64,000 bases of DNA from Chloroflexota bacterium (GTDB lineage: Bacteria > Chloroflexota > Anaerolineae > Anaerolineales > Villigracilaceae): the NCBI GenBank assembly GCA_019873655.1, contig JAIOAU010000005.1, positions 124,001 through 188,000 on the forward strand, read 5' to 3'. The translations under genes were made by a program, and so were the position numbers. Shown in pieces: positions 35,494 through 44,656 of the stretch. Position 1 is the stretch's first letter, and each line of letters opens with the position of its first letter. The notes below the pieces were generated by a model. That model did no database searches and was not told where the DNA came from. It saw only the letters and a list, made by a program, of their open reading frames with translations.

Positions 35494-35515
35494 GCCAACC
35501 TTATCCATCACAAAG

Positions 35516-35552
35516 CAAGACCCGCGTCTCACCCAGCGCGGGTCTTGTTTTT
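35516..35552 (+). terminator. Terminator after rplT
   Basis: CAAGACCCGCG pairs with CGCGGGTCTTG, followed by TTTTT, 22 bp after the stop. Confidence 0.92.
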
Positions 35553-35604
35553 GTTTCCACTCCTGGCAGAAGAATTTTTTATTGACCGAAATTCTTGCGG
35601 GCTA

Positions 35605-35633
35605 TTGACATGATATCGAAAATTTGCTATCAT
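35605..35633 (+). promoter_or_regulatory. Promoter of the XRE-cupin regulator
   Basis: TTGACA (35605-35610), 17 bp, TATCAT (35628-35633). The start would lie near 35640, about 32 nt before the ATG, with the AT-rich region between the -35 and -10 containing two similar GAAAATTT-type motifs. Confidence 0.7.
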
Positions 35634-35645
35634 AATACTGAAAAA

Positions 35646-35661
35646 TTTCTATATTTAGAAA
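35646..35661. promoter_or_regulatory. Putative operator, TTTCTA-N4-TAGAAA
   Basis: A perfect 6-bp inverted repeat with a 4-bp spacer lies between the transcription start and the ATG of the XRE-cupin gene. Helix-turn-helix repressors of this class commonly repress themselves through such palindromes. A related GAAAATTT-gCTAT / GAAAAATTTCTAT direct repeat overlaps it. Confidence 0.5.
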
Positions 35662-35671
35662 AGAGTTCCCC

Positions 35672-36283
35672 ATGCCCAACATCGGTCTCCGTCTTCGAGA
35701 ATTGCGTCTCGCACGCGGCCTGACCCTCGAGCAGGTCGCCGCCGATACGGGCCTGTCGGTCTCCTTCCTGAGCATGCTGGAGCGCGACAAGGTCTCCGTC
35801 AGCGTGGACAACCTCGAGCGGCTGGCGCGCTACTACCAGGTCCACATGGTGCATTTCTTCAGCGGCGAGGCCGACAGCCCGGTGCTGGTCACCCGCCGCG
35901 CCGACATCCTGCGCCGCCTGACCGAGAACGGCGAAGCCCCGGCCTCGGTCACCCTGCTGGTCAACCGCCCCAATCCGCGCATGGAGCCGCTCCTCGTCCA
36001 CATTGCGCCGGGGCGCGAGGAGCCGCACTTCCGCCAGCACGAGGCCGACACCCTGGTCTACGTCCTGAGCGGACGCGCCCGCCTCGTCTCGGAGACGGGC
36101 GAGGAGACGATGCTGGAGCAGGGTGACCTGGCCTACTACGTCAACCTGCCGCACCGCCGCTTCATCAACGCTAGTCAGAGCGAGCCGCTGACGCTGGTCA
36201 TCATCACCGCCCCGCCGACCAGTTCGCTGGACGAGTTGCTCAAGGCCCGTCAGGGGTTCTGGGCGATGGGAGAGCAGAAATGA
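35672..36283 (+). CDS. XRE-type HTH regulator with C-terminal cupin
   Basis: The 203-residue protein has an N-terminal XRE helix-turn-helix (IGLRLRELRLARGLTLEQVAADTGLSVSFLSMLERDKVSVSVDNLERLA, written as residues 4-52) and a cupin domain (about 100-190) with HEADTLVYVLSGRARLV, EEPHFRQHEAD and GDLAYYVNLPHRRFIN. The cupin probably binds a small effector. It directly precedes, in the same direction, the ten-gene cluster at 36450, but is separated by its own terminator, so it may regulate the cluster in trans. An AT-rich operator-like region lies upstream. Confidence 0.9.
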   Translation: MPNIGLRLRELRLARGLTLEQVAADTGLSVSFLSMLERDKVSVSVDNLERLARYYQVHMVHFFSGEADSPVLVTRRADILRRLTENGEAPASVTLLVNRPNPRMEPLLVHIAPGREEPHFRQHEADTLVYVLSGRARLVSETGEETMLEQGDLAYYVNLPHRRFINASQSEPLTLVIITAPPTSSLDELLKARQGFWAMGEQK

Positions 36284-36289
36284 GTCTTC

Positions 36290-36312
36290 GCCGCGCGTAC
36301 GCGCGGCTTTTT
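36290..36312 (+). terminator. Terminator after the XRE-cupin gene
   Basis: GCCGCGCG and CGCGCGGC flank a TA loop and are followed by TTTTT, 7 bp after the stop. Confidence 0.92.
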
Positions 36313-36334
36313 ATTTGCGCCGTCCTGTCCGCAC

Positions 36335-36435
36335 AATTCGTGTCATCCGGTGCAAAGACCATAACTTGTTCGTGAAATTCGTGCCATTCGATGCCAAAAC
36401 CATAACTTATTCGTGAAATTCGTGTCATTCGATGC
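36335..36435. repeat. Two to three direct repeats, period 41-43 bp
   Basis: TTCGTGNCATYCGRTGC recurs at 36335, 36378 and 36419, separated by CAAAxACCATAACTTxTTCGTGAAA. The 17-bp core also occurs at 23255-23271. It fills the gap between the regulator terminator and the ribosome-binding site of the first cluster gene. Confidence 0.7.
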
Positions 36436-36449
36436 AAAAAGGAGAGAAG

Positions 36450-37487
36450 ATGCACTACGACGAATTCCACAATCACAAATGGGCGCGCAACCTGAAGCAC
36501 GCCCGCCAACTGCTGGCCGAAAACCGGCTGGAGGCCTTCTATCACGGCGAAGACCTGCCGGACGACGACGTCTACCCGGGGATGCGCGTCATGGCCGCCT
36601 ACTGGGTCTCGGTGGAACATGAGATGAAACTGCGCTTCCGTACCCTGCTCGAAGGGGCGGGACACCCCGAATGGATGCACGACCCGGAATTGACCGCCCA
36701 GGCGCAGGACTTCTTCGCCCGCTACCTGGACGACATGCGTGAACTGGTCGTCCGCGACGGAATCGTCCCCGCGGCGCGGCTCGACGCCCTGTCCGCCGCC
36801 GGCTGGGAGACGCCCGCCGACTGGGCCGAACAAATGCAGGCCTGGCAGCAGGCCTCGCTGGCGGCCATCGAGGCCGGGCAGTTCCCCGCCGACCTGGCCG
36901 AGAAGTGGTTCGATTCCTGCCTGCGCGCGGTGGCAAACTACAACCGCTACCTCATCGGGGGCGCGGTCAACGCCGCCGCGCTCGTCCGGCGCGAGGGTCC
37001 CGAGGCGCTGCAGAGGGCGGTGGACGCGACCTCGGAGCAGTTCATGTGGGCGGTCAGCAAGGAATTCTTCGCCACCGTCCTGCCTGCCGCCGGCTTCGAG
37101 GACATCGGCGACCTGATGGAACTCGGCCTGCGCGGCATGTACGCCGACCAGTATTACCGCAAGGGCGAAGACCGCGAGGAGGGCGAGAAGACCATCCGCC
37201 AGAGCATTCTCAAGAACTGTGAACTGGCGGGCATCTATTCCCGCGTGGCCGAGTGGAACGGCCTGCCCCGCCTGGCGCTCGGCTACGGAATCTGCCGCTA
37301 CTGCGAGGTGCACGGCCAGGCGACGATGATGATTACCATGCCGCCGATGGTCTCGCCGCAGTACCGCCGGGTCGTCTCGCTCGGCATGGACGGCGAGGCC
37401 TGTCTCTTCGAGTTGACCACCGTCCCCGCCGATGACATGGAACGCATCCTGATGGTGCAGGAAAAAATCTTCGGCGCGGTGGAATAG
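36450..37487 (+). CDS. Unrecognised protein, first gene of the ten-gene cluster
   Basis: The ATG at 36450 follows AAAGGAGA. The 345-residue soluble protein is rich in aromatic and acidic residues. Its C-terminal ~100 residues contain SILKNCELAGIYSRVAEWNGL, then a Cys pair in YGICRYCEVHGQ, and GMDGEACLFEL, which loosely recalls L-2-amino-thiazoline-4-carboxylate hydrolase-like (ATC hydrolase) proteins; I cannot confirm this. The N-terminal half has no recognised motif. The downstream membrane gene starts 8 bp after its stop, so it belongs to the cluster. Confidence 0.75.
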   Translation: MHYDEFHNHKWARNLKHARQLLAENRLEAFYHGEDLPDDDVYPGMRVMAAYWVSVEHEMKLRFRTLLEGAGHPEWMHDPELTAQAQDFFARYLDDMRELVVRDGIVPAARLDALSAAGWETPADWAEQMQAWQQASLAAIEAGQFPADLAEKWFDSCLRAVANYNRYLIGGAVNAAALVRREGPEALQRAVDATSEQFMWAVSKEFFATVLPAAGFEDIGDLMELGLRGMYADQYYRKGEDREEGEKTIRQSILKNCELAGIYSRVAEWNGLPRLALGYGICRYCEVHGQATMMITMPPMVSPQYRRVVSLGMDGEACLFELTTVPADDMERILMVQEKIFGAVE

Positions 37488-37495
37488 GAGGCGGG

Positions 37496-38026
37496 ATGAA
37501 AACCGAACGCTTTCCCCTGTGGGGCAAAGTCCTGATTTTGCAGGCCGTCTTCCTGGTGCTGCATTTTCTCTACGACTGGGCCCCCGGCCCGGCGACGGCC
37601 ATCTTCAGCGGGACGAACGAGTCCATTTACCAGCACATGAAGGTGGCGTTCTTTGCTTATCTGTTCGTCTCGGCGCTCGAATATCTTCTGGTTCGCAAAT
37701 CTCTCGCCGCGCCCGCCCGTTTTCTGCACGCCCGCGCCCTGACGGCGGTGCTGTTCCCGCTGCTGGTCATCCCCTGGTACTACACCTCGGCGGCCTACTT
37801 CGTCAGAATTGAGTCCGTGTTCCTGGAAATCCTGTTCGCCAATCTGGCCACCCTGCTGAACTCCATCTCCGGCGTGCTGATTGAACAGCATCTCGAAAAG
37901 GTCGTCTTCAGCCGCGGCCTGAAGTGGTGCACCGCGGCGCTGTTCGTCATCACCTTGTCCGAGTTCATCATTTTCACCTACCGCCTGCCCTGGCTGGATG
38001 TCTTTGCCAATCCGCCGGGCTGGTAA
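37496..38026 (+). CDS. Small four- to five-helix membrane protein (DUF6512-like), paralogue A
   Basis: The 176-residue protein has about five helices (roughly 10-30, 45-65, 75-95, 105-125 and 140-165). The segment SGTNESIYQHMKVAFFAYLFVSALEYLL around residues 38-65 resembles the NES-x-x-H-K motif of DUF6512 proteins. It is paralogous to the 43314 gene of this cluster (shared SG-x-x-ES-x-x-QH-x-K, FFAYL, LEILF/LEILW and FRLPW-x-DVF). Location in the cluster suggests a membrane function such as a transporter or scaffold, unproven. The ATG is preceded by GGAGG. Confidence 0.85.
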   Translation: MKTERFPLWGKVLILQAVFLVLHFLYDWAPGPATAIFSGTNESIYQHMKVAFFAYLFVSALEYLLVRKSLAAPARFLHARALTAVLFPLLVIPWYYTSAAYFVRIESVFLEILFANLATLLNSISGVLIEQHLEKVVFSRGLKWCTAALFVITLSEFIIFTYRLPWLDVFANPPGW

Positions 38027-38134
38027 TCAATTGGAATCAACCGCAAAGGCCGCAGCGTGGTTGATGATTTTCAAAATCTGCGCCGCTGCGTCAATCTGCG
38101 GATTAACTCTCACCTCTCGAAAGGAGAACCCAAA

Positions 38135-38467
38135 ATGTCCACAATCAAGGAAGTCATGATGAGTCTGCCCGGCCTGTTCAAGCCCGAAAAGGCCAAAGGC
38201 TGGAACCGCGTCATCCTGTTCGATTTGCAGGGACAGGAACCCTCGCAATGGACGCTCATCGTCCAGGACGGCACGGCGACCATCGAGGAGGGCCAGACGC
38301 GCGAACCCAAACTGGTCATCAGCGGCAACAGCGAATACATCGTCCAGATGTTCACCGGCGAAGTACCGCCGATGAAACTGGTCAACGCCAAACTGCTGAA
38401 GATGAAAGGCCCGATGATGGACGCCATCGCCTTCTCCGGGCTGTGGAATTTGCCGAAGAAGTATTAG
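38135..38467 (+). CDS. SCP2-like sterol-carrier-domain protein
   Basis: The 110-residue protein is a single SCP2-type domain: IKEVMMSLPGLFKPEKAKGWNRVILFDLQG to KLVISGNSEYIVQMFTGEVPPMKLVNAKLLKMKGPMMDAIAFSGLW. SCP2 domains bind lipids or acyl-CoA in a hydrophobic pocket and commonly serve as carriers for CoA-linked enzymes. It is preceded by AAAGGAG. The gap of 108 bp before it contains nothing else recognised. Next to thiolase-fold enzymes, this protein probably carries their hydrophobic substrate. Confidence 0.88.
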   Translation: MSTIKEVMMSLPGLFKPEKAKGWNRVILFDLQGQEPSQWTLIVQDGTATIEEGQTREPKLVISGNSEYIVQMFTGEVPPMKLVNAKLLKMKGPMMDAIAFSGLWNLPKKY

Positions 38468-38526
38468 ACCGACCGCAGACCGCGGACGGCCGTCGGCTGT
38501 CTGCGGTCTGAAAACAGGAGGTTCCC

Positions 38527-39609
38527 TTGAAGACAGGCATTCTCTCCTACGGCGTGGCCCTGCCGCGCTACCGCATCGAGGCCGGCGAAATCTGGAAGGT
38601 CTGGAAGAATCTCTCGACCTCCTTCTTCGACCTGCTCTCGATTGGCGAACGCGGCGTGCTGGGACCCGAAGAAGACACCCTGACCCTGGCCGTCGCGGCC
38701 GCCAAACAGGCCCTCGAGCGCGGCGGGGTCGGGACCGAAAAGATTGGCGCGCTGTTCCTGGGCAGCGGCACCAGCCCCTATGCGACCAAGGCCGCCGCGA
38801 CCGTCATGCTGGACGCCCTCGGTCTGCCCGAAACGGCCCTGACCAGCGACATCCAGTGCGCCGACAAATCCGGCTCCACCGCCCTGTGGCTGGCCGCCGG
38901 GCTGATTGAATCCGGCCAGGTGGACTACGCCCTGGTCGTCGCCGCCGACAGCATCAACCGTCACACCCAGCCCGGCATGGTGCTGGAATACGTCGCCTCG
39001 GCGGGGGCGGTGGCTTTCCTGCTCGGCAAAGAGAATCCGATTGCCATGCTGGAGGCCTTCGCCACCCACAGCCACGACCAGAACGATTACTTCCGCGTCG
39101 AGGGCGAGCGCTTCATCCAGCCGGGGGCGGGATTCTACGGCTGGGTGGCGAACTGGGGCCTGCTCGACCACGTCGTCCCGGCGGGCAAGGCGCTCTTCGA
39201 GAAGACCGGCCTGACCCCGGCCGACTTCGCCAAGTTCGCCGTCCCGCAGAAGACCGGCATCCGCCCGCTGATGACGATGGGCAAACTCGAACTGGACATG
39301 ATGCAGGTGCTGCCCTACGTGCTGACCGCCCAAATCGGCGACTGCGGCGCGGCGGGAGTCCCGCTTTCGCTGGCGCACATCCTCGACTTCGCCGAGCCGG
39401 GCGAGCGCATCGGCGTCATTGACTATGGCGCGGGGGCCGGCTGCGACGCCTGGTCGCTGGTCACCACCGAGGCCGTCGCCGAGCGCCGTCCGCAGAGCGG
39501 GCTGGTCATCCAGCAACTCGAGGACAAAATCATGGTGGACTACGCGACGATGAGCAAGTACGAGCAGAAGTACATCCAGTCGCCGCACCGCCTGAGCAAT
39601 TTCTACTAA
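38527..39609 (+). CDS. HMG-CoA synthase-like thiolase-fold enzyme (archaeal type), possibly altered active site
   Basis: The TTG start follows AGGAGG by 5 bp. The 360-residue protein aligns with archaeal-type HMG-CoA synthases: GILSYGVALPRYRIE..EIW, PEEDTLTLAVAAAKQAL, FLGSGTSPYATK, and the nucleophile region SDIQCADKSGS (Cys111). GSAG-type and ALxxADS segments follow. In the region where the catalytic His is expected (archaeal VVFHQPN-type), the protein reads FAVPQKTG, with Val/Pro at the His position, so classical HMG-CoA synthesis may be lost or chemistry altered. With thiolase and DUF35 immediately downstream, it forms a likely enzyme complex. Condensation of acyl-CoA units is the expected reaction class. 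Confidence 0.85.
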   Translation: MKTGILSYGVALPRYRIEAGEIWKVWKNLSTSFFDLLSIGERGVLGPEEDTLTLAVAAAKQALERGGVGTEKIGALFLGSGTSPYATKAAATVMLDALGLPETALTSDIQCADKSGSTALWLAAGLIESGQVDYALVVAADSINRHTQPGMVLEYVASAGAVAFLLGKENPIAMLEAFATHSHDQNDYFRVEGERFIQPGAGFYGWVANWGLLDHVVPAGKALFEKTGLTPADFAKFAVPQKTGIRPLMTMGKLELDMMQVLPYVLTAQIGDCGAAGVPLSLAHILDFAEPGERIGVIDYGAGAGCDAWSLVTTEAVAERRPQSGLVIQQLEDKIMVDYATMSKYEQKYIQSPHRLSNFY

Positions 39610-39611
39610 AC

Positions 39612-39682
39612 GTAGGGCAGGCTTTCCAGCCTGCCAGGATGGTCTGGAAAGGCTCAATGACAGCCTGGAAAGGCTGTCCTAC
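39612..39682. repeat. Inverted pair of GTAGG-bracketed hairpins (REP-like)
   Basis: GTAGGGCAGGCTTTCCAGCCTGCC (start 39612) and a converging copy ending AGGCTGTCCTAC at 39682, each with an internal hairpin, form an inverted pair. The GTAG start before the hairpin matches the hallmark of REP/BIME elements mobilised by RAYT transposases. It lies in the 84-bp gap between the HMGCS-like and thiolase genes. Confidence 0.65.
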
Positions 39683-39693
39683 TGGAGGAAGTT

Positions 39694-40887
39694 ATGGGAA
39701 AAATTCTACGCAGAGTGATGATGATTGGCGGGGCGATTACGCCTCCCAATATCCCGATGGATTGGACCTGGCGGCAGATGGCGGCGGAGGCTTTCTGGAA
39801 CGCCCTGCAGGACGCCGGCGTGCCGGTCAAAGATGTGGACCTGGTGGCCTGCAACTACAACGACCGCGCCATCGCCGACTCCTCGCCCGGGCCGCAGATT
39901 GCCGACGCCCTGGGCATCCTGCCCAAGCCGGTCATCCCGATTGCCAACGCCTGCGCCGGGAACGGCATCGCCTCCTACACGGCCTGGAACGCGATTGCCT
40001 CCGGCCGCTGCGACGTGGTCGTCTCGATGGGCTTCGCCCGCTCCGACAACTACGACGCCATGGAAGCGATGAACTCGCAGGGCAACTATGTAGACTTCGA
40101 CTACATGCTCGGCCTGACGCACATCAACTACGGCGCGATGCGCGACGCCTATTACCGCCGCAAGTACAACGTGCCGCTCGAAGCCGCCGGTCATTGGGCC
40201 TACTGGTGCAACTGGTACGCCCGCCGCAACCCGCTGGCGGCCAGTTACTCCAAGCCGATGCCCGTCCTGGAGGAACTGTGCGCCGACACGCCCGAAGCGG
40301 AGCGCGACCGTCAGGCCACCAACCGCGGCGGCGTCGCCAGCGCGATGGTCTTCGTCGGCGAGGACGTGGCCCGCAGGTACACCGACAAACCGGTCTTCTT
40401 CGACGTGGCCTACGCCTTCCGCCCGCCGTATGTGGGCAATTTCTTCCACTATCCGGTGGACGGGATGCGCGAGTACGACATGGCCGAACTGCCCGGCCTG
40501 ATGGCCGCCGCCCGCGAAGCCTATGAAGTCGCCGGAATCAAGAAAGAGGACATCAATCTGGTTCAGGTTCACGACCTGACCGCCTACGAAGGGATGATGG
40601 CCCTCGAGGCCCTCGGTCTGTGCGAACTGGGCAAGGGCAAGGATTACGTCCTTTCGGGCGGGATGACGCTGGAGAGCAAATGCCCGGTCAACACCTACGG
40701 AGGCGGCCCGGCCTTCGGTCACGGCTCGGCCGGTTCGGACTTCCAGGCCGGGGTGCTGGAAAACTACTGGCAGATTCTCGGCAAATGCGGCGAGCGGCAG
40801 GTCAAGGACGCCCGCGTCGGCGTCAACACTTCCTACGGCACGCACCACTCGCTGGACGTGGTCGGCGTGGTGCAGAAAGGCTGGTAA
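39694..40887 (+). CDS. SCP2-type (non-specific lipid-transfer) thiolase
   Basis: The 397-residue protein has the thiolase nucleophile Cys87 (IANACAGNGIASYTAWNAI), the His region QVHDLTAYEGM (His293) and GGGPAFGHGSAGS (His343), the usual catalytic set, with the C-terminal NTSYGTHHSLDVVGVV. The VHD variant places it in the SCP2-type thiolase subfamily, typical of lipid and steroid beta-oxidation and archaeal acetoacetyl-CoA thiolases. The DUF35 gene begins 2 bp after the stop. Direction of reaction (condensation or cleavage) cannot be told from sequence. The ATG has GGAGG about 7 bp upstream. Confidence 0.92.
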   Translation: MGKILRRVMMIGGAITPPNIPMDWTWRQMAAEAFWNALQDAGVPVKDVDLVACNYNDRAIADSSPGPQIADALGILPKPVIPIANACAGNGIASYTAWNAIASGRCDVVVSMGFARSDNYDAMEAMNSQGNYVDFDYMLGLTHINYGAMRDAYYRRKYNVPLEAAGHWAYWCNWYARRNPLAASYSKPMPVLEELCADTPEAERDRQATNRGGVASAMVFVGEDVARRYTDKPVFFDVAYAFRPPYVGNFFHYPVDGMREYDMAELPGLMAAAREAYEVAGIKKEDINLVQVHDLTAYEGMMALEALGLCELGKGKDYVLSGGMTLESKCPVNTYGGGPAFGHGSAGSDFQAGVLENYWQILGKCGERQVKDARVGVNTSYGTHHSLDVVGVVQKGW

Positions 40888-40889
40888 CG

Positions 40890-41342
40890 ATGAGCGAACA
40901 ATTCCCCGAACAATTCGTCCGCTGGGACACGTTCTCCTCCGCCCTGTGGTACCGCACCCGCGCCGCCCGCTACCGGCTGGAGGGGACGCGCTGCACGGCC
41001 TGCGGCGAGAAGTTCTTCCCGCCGCGCACGGGGCTGATTTGCCCGTCCTGCCACGCCCGCGCCATGGAGCCGTATCCGTGCGCCCAGAGCGGCGAAATCG
41101 TCGCCGTGGCGCTCGATGACGTCGGTTTCCCGGCCGTCGGCTACGGCGACTACATGCCGCGCGTCCAGGCCATCGTCCGCCTCGACGACGGCATCCACCT
41201 GATGGTGGACATCATGCAAATCGCCGACCCGGCCGAGGTGCAGGTGGGGGCGCGCGTCAAGATGGTCCTGCGCAAGCACAAACGCGAGGACACCGGCGCG
41301 TGGGTCTATGGCTACGGCTTCATTCTCGACAAAGGAGCGTGA
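40890..41342 (+). CDS. DUF35 protein: rubredoxin-like zinc ribbon plus OB-fold
   Basis: The 150-residue protein has Cys35, Cys38, Cys51 and Cys54 (CTACGE...LICPSC), a zinc-ribbon, then an OB-fold domain (GEIVAVALDDVGFPAVGYGDY to VKMVLRK). In archaea DUF35 bridges acetoacetyl-CoA thiolase and HMG-CoA synthase to channel the intermediate; in actinobacteria it partners SCP2-thiolases or aldolases in steroid degradation. The adjacent thiolase and HMGCS-like genes fit both. Start is ATG 40890; no strong ribosome-binding site, so translation is probably coupled to the thiolase (2-bp gap). Confidence 0.92.
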   Translation: MSEQFPEQFVRWDTFSSALWYRTRAARYRLEGTRCTACGEKFFPPRTGLICPSCHARAMEPYPCAQSGEIVAVALDDVGFPAVGYGDYMPRVQAIVRLDDGIHLMVDIMQIADPAEVQVGARVKMVLRKHKREDTGAWVYGYGFILDKGA

Positions 41343-41343
41343 G

Positions 41344-41949
41344 ATGGAAACCTATCCCCTTTCGATTGCGATGTTCGACTTCGTCCCCGTGACGCTGTTC
41401 CTGGTGGGGGCGTTCTTCCTCGTGCGGATGGCCCTCCAGATGCGCGGCTCGCCCTGCGGACGGATGGCGATGGCCGGTTCGCTGCTGGTCTTCCTGGGCG
41501 GCTTCCTCAAGGCGACCTGGAAACTGCTCTACGCCGCCGAGGTGGCCGACATCCGCTGGATGAGCGAGGTGCAGTTCGCGCTGGTCGCGCCGGGCTTCCT
41601 GGCCCTGCTGGTGACGGCCATCCTGATGGCGCGCGGCCGGCGCAAGGCCGCCGCGTCGCCCGTGATGGCCATCGCCGCCTGGAAGATTCCCCTGCTGGCG
41701 GTCATGACCCTCTCCAGCATGGGCGCGCAGGGCATCCTGGCCTATCTTTCCTTCCAGCGGCGCGTCCCGCTGGCGGCGGTTGGCTTCATCGTCGCCTTCC
41801 TGTGCCTGGTGGCGATGGGCGGCATGGCCTCCGGCGAGCAGACGGTCGCCAAGCAGTGGATTGAAGAGAGCATCAACACCCTGGGGCAACTGGGCTTCAT
41901 GGTCGGCGCGATTTTGCTCCAGCGGGATGTCCGCGCCAAAGGATGCTGA
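41344..41949 (+). CDS. Small polytopic membrane protein in the cluster
   Basis: The 201-residue product has five to six helices: about 10-30, 40-60, 75-100, 120-140, 145-165, and a final hydrophobic stretch near 180-195. No motif is recognised. It starts 1 bp after the DUF35 stop, with an AAAGGAG in the end of DUF35, so it is in the same operon. Likely a membrane component or permease of the pathway, by location only. Confidence 0.8.
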   Translation: METYPLSIAMFDFVPVTLFLVGAFFLVRMALQMRGSPCGRMAMAGSLLVFLGGFLKATWKLLYAAEVADIRWMSEVQFALVAPGFLALLVTAILMARGRRKAAASPVMAIAAWKIPLLAVMTLSSMGAQGILAYLSFQRRVPLAAVGFIVAFLCLVAMGGMASGEQTVAKQWIEESINTLGQLGFMVGAILLQRDVRAKGC

Positions 41950-41960
41950 GAGGAGAAGAG

Positions 41961-43304
41961 ATGAACGACAAAAAACTGAAGAAGAAATACGGCAAGCAGT
42001 ACGGCTACGAGGTCTTGTTCAAGAATCAGCCGCGGCAGGTCGTCGGCAAGGTCGGCGTCATCATCGGCGAACTGGGCATGCCGGAGGAGTACGAGCCGGA
42101 ATTCTACAGCCGCTTCATGGAGCACGTCTTCGAGTACATCATGCCGCCCTTCCTGGTGGGGATGATTCTGGCCGACCGAGGCATGGGGCTGGTGGACCCG
42201 GAAAATCCGCTGGCGCGCGAGCCGTTCCAGCCGCGCCAATTGATTGACTCGAACGGCTCCTTCGTCAACAAGGCCGGCAAGCCGTACGTGGAATGCCCGG
42301 TCAAGTGGGTCAATCCCATCAAGAAGAACCCCTGGGATCACGGCTACTTCCTCTACAAGGGCGACGGCCCCAGCGGCCGCCCGGATGTGTGCGACAAAGT
42401 CGGGGCCAAAATCATCGGCTGGTACTACGGACACCTCCTGCCGGAGAAGAAGGTCGCCTGGCGTTCTCAACTGCGCAAGGTCTATGAAGAGGCGGTCGCC
42501 GAACTCGCCAAACGCTTTCCCGGGACGGAATTCCGCAACGCCTACTACATGTACCCGGAGACCATCCATCAGGCGGTCGAGGAATTGCTCGCCGCCGGCT
42601 GCGAGACCATCGTCTATCAGAACATCAACAACCCCATCTACTGCGACTTCGAGGACTACGGCTACGCTCTGGTGACCGCCCACGAGGCCGTCGCCGGACG
42701 GGCGCGGGTCATCATGGCCGACCAGCTCGGCAATCAGCCGTCGCTGCGGGAGGCCTACCTTCAGATTTTGCGCGACCGGCTCGCAGGTCTGGAGCGGAAC
42801 GCCAGCGTGCTGGTGATTCTTTCCCGGCACGGACATCCCTTCAAGAAGGAGACGCAGGATGAACGCGCTCCCCTCTACCGCGGACCGCTCGAGGCGGGCG
42901 TCCGCCAGGTGATGGCCGGCTGGCCCGGCAAGTGGGAGGTGGTCTGGTCATTCGATGAGTACGCCGACGAGTACTGGGACCCCAAGCGCACCAAGTTCGG
43001 CACCTACGACGCCTACCGCAAGGCCATCGAGGAAGGCTACGACTACGCCATCGAACTGCCGACCGAGTTCCCGGCCGAGAACACCGACCTGATGATTTTC
43101 CACGCCATGAAGAAATTCTGTGCCTTCGCCGAATACGACCGCAACGCCCCGATTCCGTACCCGGACTGGGAACAGCCGCTCGTGCGCACCTTCCGCGAGG
43201 GCAGGACGACCGGCATCTACGCCGGCTGTCCGGTCGGGCCGTACCGCAAGTACGTGGCGCAGGCGGTGGTGGATTCGCTCGGTCAGGTTTTGTCTGCACG
43301 ATAG
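41961..43304 (+). CDS. Protein of unknown function, possibly chelatase-like fold
   Basis: The 447-residue soluble protein is rich in aromatic residues, Asp and Glu. The central segment reads KVGVIIGELGMPEEYEPEFYSR near the N-terminus, EELLAAGCETIVYQNINNP around 220-240, and VLVILSRHGHPFKKETQDERAPLY, which resembles the HGS/HG metal-binding loop of chelatases (HemH/CbiX superfamily). A second His cluster lies near the C-terminus (MIFHAMKKFCAF). The similarity is weak, and other alpha/beta folds are possible. GAGAGGAG lies upstream of ATG, 11 bp after the membrane protein. It may be the pathway's carrier-activating or cofactor-handling enzyme. Confidence 0.7.
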   Translation: MNDKKLKKKYGKQYGYEVLFKNQPRQVVGKVGVIIGELGMPEEYEPEFYSRFMEHVFEYIMPPFLVGMILADRGMGLVDPENPLAREPFQPRQLIDSNGSFVNKAGKPYVECPVKWVNPIKKNPWDHGYFLYKGDGPSGRPDVCDKVGAKIIGWYYGHLLPEKKVAWRSQLRKVYEEAVAELAKRFPGTEFRNAYYMYPETIHQAVEELLAAGCETIVYQNINNPIYCDFEDYGYALVTAHEAVAGRARVIMADQLGNQPSLREAYLQILRDRLAGLERNASVLVILSRHGHPFKKETQDERAPLYRGPLEAGVRQVMAGWPGKWEVVWSFDEYADEYWDPKRTKFGTYDAYRKAIEEGYDYAIELPTEFPAENTDLMIFHAMKKFCAFAEYDRNAPIPYPDWEQPLVRTFREGRTTGIYAGCPVGPYRKYVAQAVVDSLGQVLSAR

Positions 43305-43313
43305 GAGGCGGCG

Positions 43314-43877
43314 ATGAAAACGGCAACCGGTTTCCGCCCCTGGCTGAAGGGCCTGCTCTTCTGGGTGACCTTTCTGCTCCTGTACGTGCTGCGCAAACTC
43401 GCGCCGGTCATCCCCATCACCCTCATCAGCGGTGTGGACGAGTCGAACTTCCAGCACTACAAGGCGACCTTCTTCGCCTATCTCATCATCTCATTGGTCG
43501 AATACCTGATTTTCCGCAAGCGGGTGAACGACCGCGCCCCCTACTGGTACGCCCGGCTGACGGCGGCCATCTTTGCCCCCTGGATGGTCTTTCTGGTTTG
43601 GTATGGGATGGTTGCAGTGGCAGGCCAGTTGCCCCTCCCGCTGGAAATCCTCTGGGGCAACGTCGCCACTCTGCTGGTGGGCATCCTGGCGGCCACCTTC
43701 GAGCGCGGCTTCGAGCAGATGCCGTACAGCCGCTCTTTGAAAGCCGTCATCTGGGCGCTGTTCGTCATCTCCATTCTCACCTATGTCATCCTGACCTTCC
43801 GGCTGCCGTGGGCGGACGTTTTCACCGAGCCGGACTGGCAGAATCATTCTCTCTTGTTGTGGAGGCAGTATGTGTAA
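43314..43877 (+). CDS. Small membrane protein (DUF6512-like), paralogue B
   Basis: The 187-residue protein has about five helices and shares with the 37496 gene the motifs SGVDESNFQHYKATFFAYLIISLVEYLI, the LPLEILWGNVATLLVG stretch and a C-terminal FRLPWADVFTEP, showing paralogy within the same operon. A strong AGGAGG precedes the ATG. Its last 8 bp overlap the SDR gene (start 43870). Function unknown; two copies suggest a heterodimer or substrate-specific pair. Confidence 0.88.
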   Translation: MKTATGFRPWLKGLLFWVTFLLLYVLRKLAPVIPITLISGVDESNFQHYKATFFAYLIISLVEYLIFRKRVNDRAPYWYARLTAAIFAPWMVFLVWYGMVAVAGQLPLPLEILWGNVATLLVGILAATFERGFEQMPYSRSLKAVIWALFVISILTYVILTFRLPWADVFTEPDWQNHSLLLWRQYV

Positions 43878-44631
43878 ACGTTTCGAGAACAAAGTCGCCA
43901 TCGTGACCGGCGCGGCCTCGGGCATCGGACGCGCCGCGGCGGTGCTGTTCGGGCGCGAGGGCGCCAAAGTGACCGTCTGCGACGTGAACGAGGCCGGGCT
44001 GGAGGAGACCCGCGCCCTGGTCGCCGCCGAAGGGGCCGAGTGCCTGAGCATGATTGTGGACGTCCGCAAGCAGGAACAGGTCGAGGCCTGCGTGGCGGCC
44101 ACGCTGGAGAAATTCGGCACGATTGACATCCTGGTCAACAACGCCGGGACCGGGCAGTTCGTCCCCTTCGCGATGATGGACAACGAGGAATACGACCGCG
44201 TCATGGACATCAACGTGCGCGGCATGTTCTTCTTCAGCCGTGCCGTTCTGCCAACCATGATGGACAAGGACTACGGCAAGATTGTCAACGTCACCTCCAT
44301 CATGGGCGAGGTGGCCGGACAGGGACAGTCCATCTACAACACCAGCAAGGGCGCGGCCAAGATGATGACGCAGGGCATCGCCGTGGACTGCTCCGGCTAT
44401 CACATCAACGTCAACGCCGTCGCGCCCGGCATGGTGCTGACCGGCCTGACCAAGAACATGCTCGGCGACCCCGACCAGGTGCAGTATTTCCTGGAGAAAA
44501 TCCCCATGCGGCGCATCGGCGAGCCGGAAGACATCGCCCACGCCATCCTCTTCCTCGCCAGCGACCAGGCCTCCTACATCCACGGCGCGACCCTGCACGT
44601 GGACGGCGGCATGATGTGCACGCGCATGTGA
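43870..44631 (+). CDS. Short-chain dehydrogenase/reductase (FabG-like)
   Basis: The 253-residue protein is a classical SDR: cofactor loop VTGAASGIGRAA, VNNAGTG, catalytic Ser in VTSIMGEV and Tyr-x-x-x-Lys in YNTSKGA, PGMVLT, and the C-terminal VDGGMMCTRM. D41-type cofactor preference cannot be settled reliably. It probably reduces a 3-oxoacyl-CoA or a related ketone made by the upstream thiolase-fold enzymes. Its start overlaps the stop of paralogue B by 8 bp, showing operon membership. It is the last gene of the cluster. Confidence 0.93.
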   Translation: MCKRFENKVAIVTGAASGIGRAAAVLFGREGAKVTVCDVNEAGLEETRALVAAEGAECLSMIVDVRKQEQVEACVAATLEKFGTIDILVNNAGTGQFVPFAMMDNEEYDRVMDINVRGMFFFSRAVLPTMMDKDYGKIVNVTSIMGEVAGQGQSIYNTSKGAAKMMTQGIAVDCSGYHINVNAVAPGMVLTGLTKNMLGDPDQVQYFLEKIPMRRIGEPEDIAHAILFLASDQASYIHGATLHVDGGMMCTRM

Positions 44632-44656
44632 GAGAAGAACGTTTCTAAAAGCCCGC

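Follow-up and report, generated by a model that had tools for sequence, protein, structure and literature searches.

What might a bacterium do with a thiolase-fold protein, an HMGCS-fold protein and a DUF35 protein encoded in a row with a stand-alone SCP2 domain, a short-chain dehydrogenase/reductase (SDR) and a ferrochelatase-fold protein? The question is raised by a gene cluster in a 64,000-nucleotide stretch of the genome of an uncultured, Anaerolineales-type Chloroflexota bacterium (assembly GCA_019873655.1, contig JAIOAU010000005.1, positions 124,001 to 188,000; hereafter the window, whose numbering is used throughout). A preliminary description of the window had listed ten co-directional genes, here g1 to g10, and all ten are present on the + strand between 36450 and 44631. 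We give an even chance to the explanation that they form a pathway module that moves horizontally and has a three-subunit C-acyltransferase of the PhlACB type at its centre. The trio g4-g6 is best read, by sequence, as a new lineage of this known kind of complex, with SCP2 and SDR partners. Its thiolase/HMGCS-fold/DUF35 composition supports the earlier expectation that the set makes or breaks C-C bonds, and no paper listed in a literature search was seen to describe the cluster or the surrounding gene set, in keeping with the suggestion that the system may be undescribed.

The trio is encoded on the + strand by g4 (38527..39609, with a TTG start after GGAGG), g5 (39694..40887) and g6 (40890..41342, with zf-ChsH2 and OB domains). 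PhlA, PhlC and PhlB of structure 5m3k ranked first for g4, g5 and g6 in PDB sequence searches (4.1e-68, 1.4e-52 and 4.7e-37, respectively), and the archaeal HMGCS complex 6esq matched at 1.1e-59, 6.1e-23 and 4e-12. As judged from these comparisons, the nearest solved relatives of the three proteins are the subunits of the C-acyltransferase that completes the antibiotic 2,4-diacetylphloroglucinol (DAPG) (5m3k, 9skh), which the preliminary description had not named. The trio resembles PhlACB in having three subunits in A-C-B gene order at 8/8 loci (the window and seven others), an HMGCS-fold subunit without catalytic residues, an acyl-Cys in the thiolase-fold subunit and a DUF35 protein with an N-terminal arm. 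PhlA is described, in the portion of PMC6392133 used here, as being without the HMGCS catalytic Cys114 and Glu82; in g4, the place of the Cys is taken by Asp or Glu and that of the Glu by Gly, Ala or Cys in 8/8 loci. The thiolase-fold subunit g5 keeps Cys87, its presumed nucleophile, together with His143, His343 and Asp349 in 8/8 loci (PhlC Cys88, His144, His347 and Asp352). In the alignment, His143 is present in 4/4 PhlC-like proteins, and neither the four mevalonate thiolases nor the thiolase of Halococcus has it. The identity of g5 is 32-33% with PhlC and 22-26% with mevalonate thiolases. A Cys4 zinc ribbon is found in g6 at 8/8 loci, and its N-terminal arm sequence aligns with PhlB; this arm is absent from the mevalonate DUF35 protein of the same genome, and the PhlB arm is likewise reported to be missing from the archaeal complex (PMC6392133, in part). 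The presence of SCP2 in 7/7 readable loci and of the SDR in 8/8 also counts in favor of this reading, as do the biosynthetic setting of two plasmid trios and the movement of the block as a unit, both described below.

Several observations weigh against it. By sequence identity, g4 is scarcely closer to PhlA (38%) than to HMGCS (35% to the Methanothermococcus enzyme and 31-36% to the second HMGCS copies of the cluster genomes), and a tree with a FabH outgroup and PhlA-like proteins from two plasmids, in which g4 forms its own clade with full support (as does g5 in an unrooted tree), did not settle which of the two g4 is nearer to (SH-aLRT 6.9, UFBoot 56). Unlike in PhlACB, PhlC His56 is replaced by Asn in g5 at 8/8 loci, Asn87 by Ala and Tyr298 by His, a residue that two of the aligned thiolases, both intact, share. 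The portion of PMC6392133 used here reports that replacing Cys88 or His56 abolished PhlC activity, and that exchanges at Tyr298, Asn87 and other named sites left minute activity at best. The His56 position is not His in two plasmid trios either; given the change to Asn, the acceptor of g5 is probably different and probably not phloroglucinol. The clusters also differ from the PhlACB system in their wider gene content, with SCP2, SDR, ferrochelatase-fold and DUF6512 proteins, and phlD was not found in them. There is no obvious maker of the acceptor either: the type III polyketide synthase (PKS) model PF00195 matched in 1/8 cluster genomes, where the match overlaps a sub-threshold FabH match, and a DAPG-like pathway was rejected for want of such an enzyme. 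Resorcinol formylation was seen with 4/8 enzymes in the part of PMC12955522 considered, and was not detected there for homologues at 73, 63 and 30% PhlC identity or for one at 98%. This panel warns against assuming phenol activity in relatives as distant as g5 (33% to PhlC). PhlACB is reversible (PMC6392133, in part), and the reaction of the trio may run in either direction.

Other relatives place the trio in a wider setting. A plasmid search with g5 returned four records, all at <28% identity. The plasmid trios of Priestia and Lactiplantibacillus are followed by nonribosomal peptide synthetase (NRPS) or PKS-like genes, which suggests that these relatives serve biosynthesis; the cluster differs in having no such genes. 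It shares with the plasmid trios and the 9vbo complex the three-gene block and the replacement of the HMGCS Cys, by Glu or Gly in those relatives. The plasmid trios and the 9vbo complex are perhaps of the reutericyclin/mutanocyclin type, with a likeness to mucA-C of the mutanocyclin cluster. In the part of PMC9112991 used, mucB bears the annotation of a thiolase family protein.

Do the ten genes behave as a unit? A genome-collection scan with g8 gave 15 loci, and the cluster is present in 7/15 (L003, L004, L005, L006, L007, L009 and L010), making eight clusters with the window. Six of the seven carry the taxon labels Anaerolineales, Anaerolineae or Chloroflexi, and one is labeled Spirochaetaceae. 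In the remaining eight loci (L008 and L011-L017), g8 stands without any other cluster gene (tblastn, E 1e-4, over the available stretch, which is only 5.4 and 3.6 kb long in two of the eight). The genes g4, g5, g6, g8 and g10 are present in 8/8 clusters, with g4 of the window 61-97% identical to the seven others. The SCP2 gene g3, found in 7/7 readable loci, is 75-100% identical to the window copy in six other loci. The remaining members are less constant: g7 is present in 6/8 clusters, DUF6512 proteins in 4/8 (one of the two in L004, g2, being a remnant) and g1 in 5/7, with none in L006, a 7-kb contig of a metagenome-assembled genome that is possibly misbinned. The gene order is not due to chance, given that it recurs in seven other loci. 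The conserved unit that had been proposed is thus borne out, with the core genes together in seven other loci rather than scattered in relatives and g8 alone in 8/15. Further open reading frames (ORFs) of at least 90 amino acids within the seven other clusters are limited to a 123-amino-acid ORF in L005 and a gene for a major facilitator superfamily (MFS) transporter, which separates g6 from g7 in L003.

A few copies depart from the common pattern. The g7 of L003 (L003:9388-9978) is 65% identical to that of the window and the other L003 cluster genes 83-100%; together with the adjoining MFS transporter gene, it is probably a replaced stretch. At the place of g1, L005 has a 46-residue ORF (L005:4919-5059) whose two ends resemble those of g1, as though the central part had been deleted. 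The g8 of L006 (L006:4842-6173) contains one in-frame stop near its start and that of L017 (L017:3000-4336) is split over two frames, each being either an error or a pseudogene. In L010, g6 extends into unread bases.

The whole module occupies 35495..44655 (+ strand; borders approximate) between rplT and a macro-domain gene. In G001, a genome of the same genus that is identical to L003 and G447 by contig number and coordinates, the infC, rpmI, rplT, macro-domain and trmH genes stand next to one another with no cluster among them, and its own copy of the cluster is on a different contig. At the nucleotide level, homology to G001 stops at 35494, behind rplT, and restarts at 44656. Given the empty site and the break in homology at the borders, the ~9.16-kb block is best read as an insert. 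In a genome of another genus (G003), rplT adjoins the macro-domain gene, and in a further genome of the same genus in which no g8 was found (G002), a 239-amino-acid ORF lies between the two. From these comparisons, the block, which is differently placed in the sister genome, is best read as moving horizontally as one unit. Pfam/NCBIfam scans found no transposase or integrase among its recognised genes. Its distribution is patchy: g8 was found in 2/61 relatives, namely the genome of the window and one of the two further members of its genus. Among 400 genomes of the phylum, g1 was found in 1/400, its own genome, and a close g5 in its own genome only, plus one weak match (5e-35) in G086, where a short DUF35 match adjoins it and no g4 was found on the 4.2 kb available. 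In the phylum to which L006 belongs (344 genomes), g5 was found at 1e-40 in the L006 genome only. In these searches of 400 and 344 genomes, no more than 4 or 5 first-look candidates were scored for each genome.

The partner genes bear on what the trio could act upon. The Pfam/NCBIfam scans uphold the family labels given earlier, namely SCP2 for g3 (38135..38467, + strand, Pfam 2.8e-12, a stand-alone lipid-carrier domain), HMGCS/KAS III-like for g4, SCP2-type thiolase for g5, DUF35 for g6, SDR for g10 and DUF6512 for g2 and g9. The classical SDR g10 (43870..44631, + strand, Pfam adh_short_C2 2.9e-69) has Ser143, Tyr156 and Lys160 and passes, among others, the FabG-type 3-oxoacyl reductase model PRK12826.1-2 (224 versus 222 bits). 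The DUF6512 membrane proteins A (g2, 37496..38026, + strand, Pfam 3.8e-10) and B (g9, 43314..43877, + strand, Pfam 6.7e-6) are indeed paralogues, at 40% identity, and a literature search found no paper naming DUF6512. An unrecognised membrane protein without a Pfam match, g7 (41344..41949, + strand), has four hydrophobic segments in a simple hydropathy scan; when six homologues were compared with Pfam, one match fell below 0.001 (DUF6796, 4.9e-4, in 1/6) and the others were weaker. The 345-amino-acid protein g1 (36450..37487, + strand) was found only in this cluster and has no Pfam or NCBIfam match. Its structure model reached a pLDDT of 73 (two of five models >70). Foldseek placed phenol-sensor V4R domains first (best 5kbe, probability 0.99 but E 0.022), and VIA gave Z values of at most 6.3, with other folds on top and the V4R match 5kbg at Z 5.0. 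The C-terminal part of the model may weakly resemble V4R, aromatic-sensor, H-NOX or Bet3 folds, which we take as a lead only.

The possible chelatase-fold protein of the preliminary description, g8 (41961..43304, + strand), does have a two-domain class II chelatase fold in Foldseek and VIA comparisons of an AlphaFold model with a pLDDT of 70, in which residues 67-164 are largely poorly modeled. Foldseek matched it to 1ak1 at 3.9e-10. The best VIA match was 8aw7 (Z 22.5, root-mean-square deviation 3.3, 291 residues aligned); rows 1-40 are all ferrochelatases, and SirB, CbiX, FetB and CbiK come lower. The fold is shared with HemH/CpfC over 288-310 residues; g8 differs from them in its 9-15% identity, in a large insertion of ~100 residues and in its genome, where HemB and HemC were not found. 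Against the Pfam Ferrochelatase model, g8 scores 23.3 bits, below the gathering score of 27, which four homologues exceed; the model matched 13/13 aligned g8 copies with E values no higher than 1, the best being 2e-8. His290 (SRHGHP) and Asp376 would presumably correspond to the ferrochelatase catalytic His and Glu, so that Asp would take the place of the Glu.

The same model (PF00762) matched only g8 in its own genome, and this search is informative for canonical ferrochelatases only, since g8 itself was missed in 5/15 genomes. Neither HemB nor HemC was found in this 99.82% complete genome, nor any other ferrochelatase by PF00762; the control searches that accompanied those for HemB and HemC were each positive in 11/14 genomes, the L016 genome lying outside the PF00762, HemB and HemC searches. 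De novo heme synthesis was rejected as a role of g8 given that HemB and HemC were not found. Both are present in 2/15 g8 genomes, G448 and G453, which also carry the cluster. Where g8 lies outside the cluster, its surroundings vary. The genome of L008 (G452) has a canonical ferrochelatase (1e-98) and no HemB or HemC match, a pattern that may reflect porphyrin scavenging. In L013, g8 lies among UbiA, cytochrome c assembly, CcmB and carotenoid-synthesis protein genes, with L015 alike by eye; in L011, it is near genes for a phosphoenolpyruvate-utilising enzyme and a glycerol-3-phosphate acyltransferase-family protein, with L017 alike by eye.

How else might the trio be explained? The preliminary description had invoked archaeal acetoacetyl-CoA/HMG-CoA channelling, and the trio does share its fold and presumed architecture with the archaeal thiolase/HMGCS/DUF35 complex 6esq. 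The g4 protein also scores above the cut-off of the NCBIfam HMGCS model PRK04262 (312 versus 244 bits), but it falls far under that of TIGR00748 (250 versus 353 bits) and, unlike the HMGCS of 6esq, has lost the residues equivalent to Cys114 and Glu82. Furthermore, its own genome has another such set elsewhere, in which a second HMGCS with both residues, a thiolase and a DUF35 protein stand in a row adjoining HMG-CoA reductase. When the g4 alignment was used as query, a second HMGCS was found in 7/8 cluster genomes (split over two contig ends in G448) and none in the Spirochaetaceae genome; HMG-CoA reductase occurs in the same seven, and the mevalonate-type HMGCS copies keep Cys and Glu in 6/6 aligned, the seventh, split copy being left out. 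We therefore abandon channelling as a role for the trio, for which it would be an extremely improbable one. A Claisen condensing enzyme, in which g5 is a biosynthetic thiolase whose 3-ketoacyl product is attached to CoA or to a different carrier, the SDR reduces this to a 3-hydroxyacyl group and SCP2 holds the lipid, is an unlikely but more serious contender. It draws on the retention of Cys87 and His343, on the FabG-type match of g10 and on His293 of g5 (8/8 loci), which is followed by Asp; the HDAF of the two aligned thiolases that are intact has the same pair, PhlC having Tyr. Its opponents are also within g5, which has GHGS instead of the thiolase GHP, keeps His143 and Asp349, both absent from the thiolases aligned, and is closer in identity to PhlC than to mevalonate thiolases. 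In the mevalonate-set thiolase of its own genus (L036:6276-7436, G000:C2, beside HMG-CoA reductase, and also L028), the nucleophile Cys is replaced by Gly (EAAGASG), so that g5 could even take over from this thiolase; against this, the Cys is retained in the mevalonate-set thiolases aligned from two other cluster genomes. In the same own-genus thiolase (L036, L028), Asn replaces the His of GHP, and Tyr that of HDAF. With HMGCS intact and the thiolase Cys lost, this mevalonate set is, as far as sequence can tell, the mirror image of the window trio.

We also considered a degradative module, in which the trio would remove an acyl group or side chain from an exogenous hydrophobic compound by retro-Claisen or retro-acylation chemistry, assisted by SCP2, the SDR and the regulator. 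The reversibility of PhlACB and the patchy distribution fit this, as does the cleavage of steroid side chains by SCP2-fold thiolase relatives with DUF35 (PMC12329534, in part). The g5 and g6 pair resembles the Ltp2/ChsH2 and Sal steroid aldolases in combining an SCP2-thiolase fold with DUF35, a comparison already drawn in the preliminary description. It has turned out weak: the catalytic YDHF/YDCY motif of these aldolases is HDLT in g5 at 8/8 loci, g5 keeps the acyl-Cys, and the aldolases are described, as far as the available part of that literature goes, without an HMGCS-fold partner such as g4. The steroid aldolase reading was rejected on the missing motif. No hydratase, acyl-CoA dehydrogenase or ligase occurs among the ORFs of at least 90 amino acids within the seven other clusters, and we hold a degradative role to be doubtful. 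A last proposal is that a third thiolase/HMGCS-fold/DUF35 lineage C-acylates a scavenged tetrapyrrole or similar ring on g8, in a host that cannot make tetrapyrroles, yielding a modified cofactor or antimicrobial; g8 would handle the porphyrin metal, the V4R-like g1 bind the ring and the SDR reduce the acyl group that the trio has added. V4R domains are named from the 4-vinyl reductase BchJ, and this counts for the proposal, as do the setting of g8 in L013 and the ferrochelatase fold of g8 in a genome where the searches found neither HemB nor HemC nor a further ferrochelatase. On the other side, a ferrochelatase fold alone does not reveal the ligand, the g1 fold match is weak, the cluster genomes G448 and G453 do have HemB and HemC, and we know of no C-acyltransferase that acts on tetrapyrroles. 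A scavenged tetrapyrrole as acceptor is thus a long shot, and so is the modified cofactor or antimicrobial.

Returning to the PhlACB-type C-acyltransferase, we envisage that g4, g5 and g6 would form one complex, with g4 and g6 providing scaffold and cavity. The g5 subunit would load an acyl group on Cys87 and transfer this group to a nucleophilic carbon of a hydrophobic acceptor, which the SCP2 protein g3 may carry, and g10 would then reduce the new ketone. The products of g1, g7, g8 and the DUF6512 genes could act in binding, shaping or transport of the substrate or product; what exactly each of them does is a guess.

An eleventh gene, overlooked in the preliminary description, belongs to the cluster. 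The regulator gene g0 (35672..36283, + strand) encodes XRE-type helix-turn-helix and cupin domains (Pfam HTH_3 3e-14, Cupin_2 4.8e-10) and lies upstream of the cluster in 6/7 readable loci (the window, L003, L004, L005, L006 and L009). It is not found before g1 in L010, where the end of an SDR-like ORF is followed by the end of the contig, and in L007 the contig begins within the cluster, making the upstream place unreadable. A sigma-70-like promoter precedes g0 at 35605..35633 (+ strand; TTGACA-17-TATCAT, 11/12 match), and similar sites precede it in L003 and L004. The region 35605-35661 also holds a palindrome, TTTCTA-N4-TAGAAA, whose perfect form occurs in the window only among six loci scanned. 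A terminator-like hairpin in the g0/g1 gap (36290..36307, + strand; seven pairs, then TTTTTATTTG; shuffles expect 0.8) recurs at the matching position in L003 and L004, and because it separates g0 from g1, g0 may be partly transcribed separately. Three 41-nucleotide direct repeats follow the hairpin (within 36290-36448) and were not seen by eye in other loci. Probably, g0 controls the gene unit. From g1 to g10, the gaps are 8, 108, 59, 84, 2, 1, 11, 9 and -8 bp, so that the spacing of 1-11 bp reported earlier holds for 5/9, with three wider gaps and one overlap.

In summary, enzymes that acylate carbon without CoA-activated reagents are rare and are sought as biocatalysts, and the g4-g6 trio would add a distant lineage with an altered acceptor site and ready-made partner genes, whose insertion borders define a natural unit for transfer into a host. 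The genome itself offers a mirror pair of thiolase/HMGCS/DUF35 sets, each with the opposite subunit intact. Finally, the occurrence of g8 in a genome without detectable HemB or HemC makes a new role for the ferrochelatase fold testable.

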